Shown: in pieces, positions 31,168 through 32,491 of the stretch
Layout: the number at the start of each line of letters is the position of its first letter
Position numbering within the stretch: position 1 is the first letter of the stretch
NCBI RefSeq assembly: GCF_017355785.1
Contig: NZ_JAFEWE010000003.1
Span: 186,001 to 250,000 of the forward strand
Direction: 5' to 3'
Length of the DNA: 64,000 nt
Origin: Desertivirga arenae
GTDB lineage: Bacteria; Bacteroidota; Bacteroidia; Sphingobacteriales; Sphingobacteriaceae
Program-made: the position numbers and the translations under genes
Notes under the pieces: model-generated
Databases searched by the model: none
Told to the model about the DNA's origin: nothing
The model's input: the letters and a program-made list of their open reading frames with translations, nothing else

Positions 31168-32136
31168 CTAAAAGTCCTCGTCAAGGGAGAAGCTTTGCGT
31201 ATCCTTTCCGGTAAGTACCCCCGCCTTTTGATAGTCTCCCACACGTTTTTCGAAGAAATTAGTTTTACCTTGTAGAGAGATCATCTCCATAAAGTCGAAA
31301 GGGTTCTGCGCGTTAAAGATCTTATCATACCCCAATTCGTTCAGCCAACGATCAGCCACGAACTCAATGTACTGCTTCATCAGTTTTGCATTCATCCCTA
31401 TAAGATCTGCAGGAAGGGCTTCGGTTATAAACTCCTTTTCAATTTCAACCGCTTCAGAAATTATATCATACACCAGCTTCTGCGAGAGCTTATTATTCAG
31501 CATACTGTATAAGAGACAGGCGAACTCGCAGTGTAAGCCTTCATCACGACTAATCAGCTCATTACTAAAGGTCAGACCTGGCATAAGTCCCCTTTTCTTT
31601 AACCAGAATATGGAACAAAAACTTCCACTGAAGAAGATCCCTTCTACTGCTGCAAAAGCAACCAGTCTTTCTGCAAAGCTGCCATTCTCTATCCATCGTA
31701 AGGCCCATTCCGCTTTTTTCTTTACTGCAGGTACAGTATCTATAGCGTGAAACAAATAATCTTTTTCGCGGCTATCTTTAATGTAGGTATCAATGAGTAG
31801 TGCATAAGTCTCCGAATGAATGTTCTCCATCATGATTTGAAATCCATAGAAACAACGGGCTTCGGGTACCTGGACCTCGCTCATGAAGTTTACAGCCAGA
31901 TTTTCGTTTACAATTCCATCACTAGCCGCAAAGAAGGCAAGTACATGTGAAATGAAGTGTTTTTCTCCAGGATTTAACAATTCCCAGTCCTTCAAATCTC
32001 CGGTGAGATCAATCTCTTCAGCTGTCCAGAAACTGGCTTCGTGTTTCTTGTACATTTCCCAGATCTTGGGATAGTTAATAGGCAGGATCACGAAACGATC
32101 CTTGTTCTCTTTTAATAATACTTCTTCCTGTTGCAT
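31168..32136 (-). CDS. nrdB: Class Ia ribonucleotide reductase, beta subunit
   Basis: Provides the tyrosyl radical for NrdA through a di-iron centre. I start it at ATG 32136 ([12 protein letters not shown]), giving 322 residues. The frame stays open to 32286, but that stretch overlaps the conserved core of a riboswitch and cannot be coding in practice. Iron ligands and the radical Tyr lie in [21 protein letters not shown] and DEGLHCEFA, and the intact Tyr supports class Ia rather than a Tyr-less subclass. The C-terminal FSLDEDF is the NrdA-docking tail. Order nrdB then nrdA. Confidence 0.96.
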
Positions 32137-32246
32137 ATTCTTATTGTTTTTGATACAAACAGGAATTGACAAAAGGCAGCAGACCCGGGGATAAATGGGT
32201 GCGAAGACTTTCGTCAAAACCTTATTCGTGAAAGTTTTGACAAAAA

Positions 32247-32358
32247 CTATCTGGCAGGTGTCTGGCTTACCGCTTTTGCGGATCACAGTTGCACGTCAGC
32301 CCGTGAATTGAACACGGTTCCCTTTTAATCATCCGTACTCCCGGATGAACCAATATAG
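32247..32358 (-). ncRNA. Cobalamin (B12) riboswitch controlling nrdBA
   Basis: The transcribed minus strand contains the B12-box core in the right order: GATTAAAAGGGAA, then a CCGTG/CACGG hairpin, GGCTGACGTGCAACTGT, a CCGC/GCGG hairpin, and AAGCCAGACACCTGCC. A closing helix CTAT/ATAG brackets it, and a peripheral TCATCCG/CGGATGA hairpin sits at the 5' side. It ends about 110 bases before the nrdB start. Downstream, GTCAAAAC/GTTTTGAC (32213-32241) may be part of the expression platform. Binding of adenosylcobalamin normally shuts off the downstream genes, so class Ia reductase would be repressed when B12 is available. Confidence 0.95.
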
Positions 32359-32491
32359 TCATTGAAATAATGAGCGGTAAAGATAGGACAAGACTTGGCG
32401 CAAAGGAAAAGTAGTTTTAAACAGAAGGGTGTTTTTTCAACAAATAAGGTCGGGTGCCTTTAGAATATTCAGGCGAATGTTCCAATGAAAG

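Follow-up and report, generated by a model that had tools for sequence, protein, structure and literature searches.

A predicted cobalamin riboswitch ahead of the class I ribonucleotide reductase genes nrdBA in a Bacteroidetes genome that also encodes NrdJ

The nrdBA locus and its leader

The window, by which we mean the whole 64-kb stretch of DNA analysed here, carries on its minus strand the genes nrdB and nrdA for the two subunits of a class I ribonucleotide reductase, preceded by a leader that matches the Rfam family RF00174 (Cobalamin). The features of this locus, together with related loci discussed below, are collected in Table 1. The cmscan match at 32370-32236 (-) covers model positions 1-189, is not truncated and reaches 62.2 bits against a gathering score of 31.5 (E 5.6e-13). 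Its alignment takes in the AAAAGGGAACC core and the B12 box, and it is the sole match above any Rfam gathering score in the window. The original prediction of a B12 aptamer in the minus-strand nrdBA leader is thus borne out by a significant Infernal match to the Rfam cobalamin model, while the range given for it, 32137-32358, has to be corrected. The aptamer begins 12 nt further upstream, and 32235-32137 belongs to the expression platform and leader rather than to the aptamer.

Table 1. Positions of the predicted riboswitch elements and genes in the window, and of RF00174 matches before other B12-independent isozymes in the family
Feature	Position	Strand	Basis or remark
Predicted cobalamin riboswitch aptamer, short form without GGGAAGG	32236..32370	-	RF00174, 62.2 bits, full length; box GCCAGACACCTGCC
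Candidate -7 element of the Bacteroidetes type, TATCTTTA, a few nt upstream of the aptamer	32378..32385	-	TAnnTTTG consensus
B12 box AGCCAGACACCTGCC	32253..32267	-	sequence inspection
P13 5' arm TTTTTGTCAAAAC	32234..32246	-	overlaps last positions of the Rfam match
P13 loop (L13 candidate) TTTCACGAATAAG	32221..32233	-	sequence
P13 3' arm GTTTTGACGAAAG	32208..32220	-	pairs 13/13 with the 5' arm
Anti-P13 strand CTTTTGTCAA, a copy of the P13 5' arm; putative antisequestor	32166..32175	-	10/10 pairs with 32217-32208
TTCCTGTT, complementary to start-codon region 32132-32125	32158..32165	-	sequence
AACAGGAA, in nrdB codons 2-4; partner of 32165-32158	32125..32132	-	sequence
nrdB, beta subunit of the class I ribonucleotide reductase, 322 aa with start at ATG 32136	31168..32136	-	NCBIfam; start from relatives
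nrdA, alpha subunit, 797 aa	28735..31128	-	TIGR02506, 744.8 bits (cut-off 341.05)
RF00174 before second class I reductase	L153:4699-4831		
RF00174 before second class I reductase	L154:2077-2207		
RF00174 before second class I reductase	L152:4723-4860		
RF00174 before metE, genus g18	L155:1237-1388		
RF00174 before metE, genus g18	L156:4540-4691		

The NCBIfam models that fit NrdB best, NF005550 and NF007186, both stay below their cut-offs, and the best named matches of the protein come from uncultured Bacteroidetes and Chitinophagaceae (85-91% identity). An ORF finder extends nrdB to 31168-32286, that is, to 372 aa with a GTG start at 32286, and the 50 extra codons lie on the riboswitch and leader. 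Among 16 relatives that share this leader, 15 have an in-frame stop in the corresponding stretch before the ATG (only near its far end in L097, L098 and L106; none in L104), so that a coding role for the extension is rejected. Additionally, the proteins of many relatives begin with MQQ(E/D)E at the position of ATG 32136. Judged from these relatives, the start of nrdB is ATG 32136-32134, and it was right to regard the 50-residue N-terminal extension as riboswitch sequence, as had been proposed. The same trap was seen at L152:3679-4995, where the mechanically called 438-aa ORF of a second beta subunit continues without a stop across its riboswitch; the error may recur wherever an ORF stays open in this way.

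Just upstream of the aptamer we named the candidate -7 element on the basis of TAnnTTTG, which we take to be the Bacteroidetes -7 consensus. It reads TATCTTTG in the relatives L095, L096, L106 and L107, and a clear -33 element was not seen upstream of it. A promoter at CTTTTGTC was rejected since its spacing to a TAnnTTTG is, by eye, unsuitable. In the interval from the upstream gene to the nrdBA leader there is a terminator-like hairpin of 11 pairs (window 32517-32492, minus strand).

The genome that contains the window (contig 34) comprises 6.19 Mb and is 99.8% complete. Scanned as a whole, it has RF00174 in five places, with an E value of 1.2e-14 for the nrdB copy, which stands in a 5' leader on the same strand as nrdBA and ahead of the gene for a B12-independent isozyme. 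Two of the other four places flank a B12 transport and synthesis locus, one precedes a TonB-receptor-like gene and one has no evident B12 gene nearby; the neighbouring genes were named by eye, except for the PduO-type adenosyltransferase. The last of these matches (L012:7030-7160, equal to G000:C11:42029-42159, minus strand) scores 80.3 bits and is followed, by eye, by an ORF of 73 aa that includes a hydrophobic stretch and, after it, by a resolvase-like fragment. Perhaps this aptamer was stranded by a mobile element, or it controls a small membrane protein.

NrdJ and the occurrence of the riboswitch in the family

A NrdJ elsewhere in the genome had been predicted together with the riboswitch, and we found it as a protein of 1100 aa (G000:C6:97384-100683) that scores 1246.5 bits with NF005122 (cut-off 859) and is also above the cut-off of TIGR02504. 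NrdA and this NrdJ are the two genes of the large-subunit family PF02867 in the genome. NrdD was not found in the genome by a search that was positive in 6 of 14 control genomes, nor was MetE by a search that was positive in 10 of 14. Because no class III enzyme was found as a fallback in this genome, B12 would decide about growth without oxygen.

For the distribution we searched 101 genomes of the family, all at least 90% complete, for NrdB, RF00174 and NrdJ. NrdB was present at a cut-off of E 1e-60 in 57 of the 101, and a riboswitch was counted when RF00174 lay on the same strand directly upstream of nrdB, the two being joined by coordinates. Among the matches listed under strict filters, this gave a riboswitch in at least 17 of the 57 genomes. 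Rescanning the remaining 40 nrdB places with permissive filters (13 + 20 + 7 loci) added G072 (43.4 bits) and G069 (36.8 bits), both above gathering, for a total of 19/57. NrdJ of the 1100-aa type is encoded in 28 of the 57 nrdB genomes; the riboswitch precedes nrdB in 19 of these 28 and was seen in none of the 29 that lack this type (Fisher p 1.1e-8, which overstates the case because the genomes are related). Omitting the genus of the window leaves 16/25 versus 0/29 (p 1e-7), and counting by genus gives 8/9 versus 0/4 (p 0.007), kinship being ignored in both values. We also built a tree of the 30 nrdB genes, out of the 57 nrdB genomes, for which loci were at hand. It yields three independent riboswitch pairs, counted on supported branches, and two for nrdJ, none of them opposite, which does not amount to significance. 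Overall it leaves two to four independent pairs, too few for a sign test to arrive at 0.05, and changes of the two traits along the tree are too rare for a corrected test.

The 29 genomes without the 1100-aa type are not uniform. G007, G045 and G065 carry a different class II enzyme, about 860 aa long (TIGR02504 above cut-off), and no riboswitch, G013, G047 and G057 have a class Ib NrdE as second large subunit (TIGR04170 above cut-off), and the other 23 have a single PF02867 gene each. Counted against any class II enzyme, the riboswitch is found in 19/31 genomes with and 0/26 without. The family is a mosaic of class Ia, class Ib and NrdE-prime enzymes and of two class II types. Class Ib NrdE (TIGR04170) was observed at L164, L165, L166 and L167, with NrdF adjoining in L164 and L167, and in G003 it occurs without any other PF02867 gene found.

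Both enzymes but no riboswitch were seen in 9 of the 28 genomes, namely G004, G012, G026, G042, G053, G061, G067, G080 and G090. The contig of G067 breaks off 172 nt ahead of the ATG, which makes a displaced aptamer possible there; leaving this genome out gives 19/27. Its leader L110 still has the platform motif CTTTTGTCAATTCC without a visible aptamer and, in the 172 nt available, keeps the motif CTTTTGTCAATTCCTGTT without a B12 box or P13 where its relatives have them, while nrdJ is open. The motif in L110 perhaps serves some function by itself. Within genus g16, riboswitch and nrdJ occur together in five genomes and are both missing from the pair G037/G049. The leader L109 of G080, also of g16, retains remnants only, with no RF00174 match at E 1 and an open nrdJ, and from its sequence looks like a decayed nrdB riboswitch.

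The most likely role of the element is that of a B12 riboswitch which switches nrdBA off when B12 is available, since NrdJ is encoded as well. The cell could afford this repression because NrdJ is B12-dependent and works without oxygen. Taken as a whole, this explanation, a cobalamin riboswitch on the nrdBA mRNA that acts by repression with NrdJ as the alternative, seems to us highly probable, and the same interpretation in the original prediction is supported by the sequences compared here. It predicts that these Bacteroidetes swap their ribonucleotide reductases according to the B12 supply. Against it count the nine genomes with both enzymes but no riboswitch, the three with the other class II type, the few independent pairs on the tree and, for the relay discussed below, the weak covariation of the anti-P13 helix and the outcome of constrained folding. 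The opposite sign, in which cobalamin binding turns nrdBA on, is very improbable. The platform model alone does not fix the sign, and one activating corrinoid riboswitch is known, that of A. halodurans cobT (PMC10653944), but it is hard to see what would be gained if B12 induced a B12-independent isozyme, and the confinement of the riboswitch to genomes with NrdJ fits repression.

Regulation of this kind has been described before. The nrdABS operon of Streptomyces coelicolor is reported to be under a coenzyme B12 riboswitch (Borovok et al. 2006, as cited in PMC4991794 and PMC5962746), so that these citing papers confirm the Streptomyces nrdAB precedent that had been claimed. As here, the genome encodes NrdJ and its class Ia reductase operon is preceded by a B12 riboswitch. 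The S. coelicolor case differs in that it concerns an Actinobacterium with the gene order nrdABS and regulation reported at the level of transcription, whereas we find nrdBA of a Bacteroidetes, in which a P13 arm is repeated ahead of the ATG and no terminator-like site was seen. In Desulfovibrio vulgaris and Desulfuromonas, nrdDG is likewise preceded by B12 elements, and repression where NrdJ exists was proposed for them (PMC545781). There too a B12-independent reductase lies under a B12 element with NrdJ present and the same logic was put forward, although those enzymes are class III NrdDG of delta-proteobacteria and ours is class I. The general rule that B12-independent isozymes come under B12 control is stated in PMC2211319. 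Our literature search, at the level of titles and abstract openings, gave no Bacteroidetes cobalamin riboswitch before a class I reductase; Vitreschak 2003, Borovok 2006 and Rodionov 2003 may list some. The regulatory logic is thus already published, and the Bacteroidetes nrdBA case is ordinary in kind and well supported.

The expression platform and a possible relay to the start codon

The platform was compared in 20 leaders, namely all 19 from the family in which a riboswitch precedes nrdB, plus L054, included for its shared loop motif. A regex pre-scan of 80 named loci served only for choosing leaders, and no count depends on it. In all 19 and in L054 the aptamer is followed by a hairpin with the loop TTTCACG; the leaders of other named loci (e.g. 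L013, L015, L018, L024) have different P13 loops. L054:3351-3515 belongs to Mucilaginibacter limnophilus and shows the same nrdB leader type in a named genome. The P13 arms form between 6 and 13 of 13 pairs, and the 13/13 of the window is the best of the 20 leaders. This perfect P13 and the match to the whole RF00174 model at 62.2 bits argue against the aptamer being a non-functional relic, a reading which we consider highly improbable even though the same family has one such case in L109.

Downstream of P13, separated by a spacer of 28-51 nt (32 nt in the window), a second strand repeats the P13 5' arm and can compete with it for the 3' arm. This anti-P13 strand can form 10/10 pairs with the P13 3' arm in 14 of the 20 leaders, nine in three, seven in two and five in one. 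An equal complement arose in 0.1 to 2.6% of composition-only shuffles for the 14 perfect leaders and in 4%, 7% and 15% of such shuffles for L112, L094 and L116; in L099, L100 and L054 the complement was not above shuffles that keep base composition. Since the leaders are related, the twenty amount to far fewer than twenty observations. In permutation tests of covariation, P13 gave p 0.012 with 17 distinct combinations and the anti-P13 helix a weak p 0.24 with 10.

Next to the anti-P13 strand lies TTCCTGTT, whose complement is found in the first codons of nrdB. In L097 the counterparts of TTCCTGTT and AACAGGAA have changed together (TTCTTGT with ACAAGAA). The pairing is poorly kept in L094, L099, L102, L116 and L054, and its coding side is constrained by the protein. 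Constrained folding was done for 18 of the 20 leaders, with L099 left out for its poor anti-P13 match and L105 as near-identical to L103. By thermodynamics alone, without ligand, P13 is favoured in 17 of the 18. In the anti-P13 state the start region is more accessible in 13 of these leaders, less accessible in four and equal in one; the difference between the states is small (0.51 vs 0.54 in the window).

On the minus strand between aptamer and ATG (32235-32137) there is no terminator-like site, and an intrinsic-terminator platform was therefore rejected. Within the same explanation of a repressing riboswitch, the output could still be transcription termination or mRNA decay instead of a block of translation, which we regard as unlikely. 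The mRNA level of a B. thetaiotaomicron riboswitch gene is reported to drop with B12 (PMC8941943), and, of the P13 relays in the literature, the one most like ours works through a terminator (PMC10653944). Against it stand the lack of a terminator-like site in this stretch and the hairpins in the 28-51 nt spacer, which by eye vary in position and sequence between the leaders.

Translational repression is, in our view, the likely form of the control, and OFF translational switches of such a type have been described in general terms (PMC2258182). We infer the following course. When cobalamin fills the aptamer, P13 would be locked, in this class by a kissing loop between L5 and L13. The locked P13 would leave the downstream strand CUUUUGUCAAUUCCUGUU free to base-pair around the start codon (UUCCUGUU with AACAGGAA), and less nrdBA would be translated. 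In the absence of cobalamin the downstream strand would instead be bound by the P13 3' arm, and nrdBA would be made. The relay is not strictly exclusive, because the pairing of UUCCUGUU with AACAGGAA does not overlap the anti-P13 helix. With respect to the putative kissing loop, no single register of L5-L13 pairing fits all leaders by eye, and the L5 consensus UCCCG given in PMC10653944 is not kept in the window.

The nearest relative of such a relay is the riboswitch of the P. megaterium metE gene for the B12-independent methionine synthase, which represses metE. In its ligand-free state the 3' side of P13 pairs with a downstream strand (PMC10653944), as it can here. The difference concerns that strand, which is part of a terminator in P. 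megaterium, whereas in the window it is found 39 nt ahead of the start codon, with a possible start-codon sequestor taking the terminator's place. The model offers a testable relay for a B12 riboswitch platform without a terminator.

Two aptamer subtypes and further isozyme genes behind RF00174

The short form of the window aptamer is not an isolated case. The motif GGGAAGG, which we take to be the marker of the optional P8-P10-P11 part, is absent from the window aptamer and from L004, while L001, L002 and L003, which belong to the same genome, contain it. Among the 19 nrdB aptamers of the family, the B12 box is altered in 14 (GCCAGACACCTGCC or a similar form), none of which contains GGGAAGG. 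The other five have the box GCCAGGAGACCTGCC, four of them with TGGGAAGG; all five belong to genus g16 and lie within one well-supported clade. The platform motifs are common to both groups. The new detail, as read from these leaders, is that two predicted aptamer subtypes share one homologous nrdB platform, a trimmed one whose J6/3 box is altered in most genera and a full one, including the peripheral part, within a single clade.

J6/3 and the peripheral part of the aptamer set the choice of the upper ligand. One may therefore speculate that the trimmed aptamer reads methyl- or hydroxocobalamin, and with it light or the redox state, in place of adenosylcobalamin. The altered and mostly shortened box of the 14 aptamers without GGGAAGG would suit this idea, but we think it rather doubtful: NrdJ itself uses adenosylcobalamin, and in a set of 38 riboswitches selectivity was reported not to be strongly tied to the function of the target gene, a result that concerns corrinoids and not upper ligands (PMC9600662). 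If it were true, the choice of reductase would be tuned by the chemistry of cobalamin and not by its amount alone, and the family would provide a natural series for ligand switching at constant platform. The P8-P10-P11 part has been described as optional (PMC2258182).

B12-independent isozymes as targets of the riboswitch are supported by the fact that RF00174 also precedes metE and a second class I reductase in the family. The metE case is found in two genomes of genus g18, G018, in which the identity of the gene was tested, and G050, in which the gene has the same length and start. The second class I reductase lies behind RF00174 in G015, G036 and G092, with a beta subunit of 324 aa (G015) and an alpha subunit of 548-551 aa. 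This alpha subunit is of the NrdE-prime type, with TIGR02510 above cut-off in the two that were tested, G015 and G092. A U-rich strand further downstream in L153 and L154 likewise looks, by eye, complementary to the P13 3' arm.
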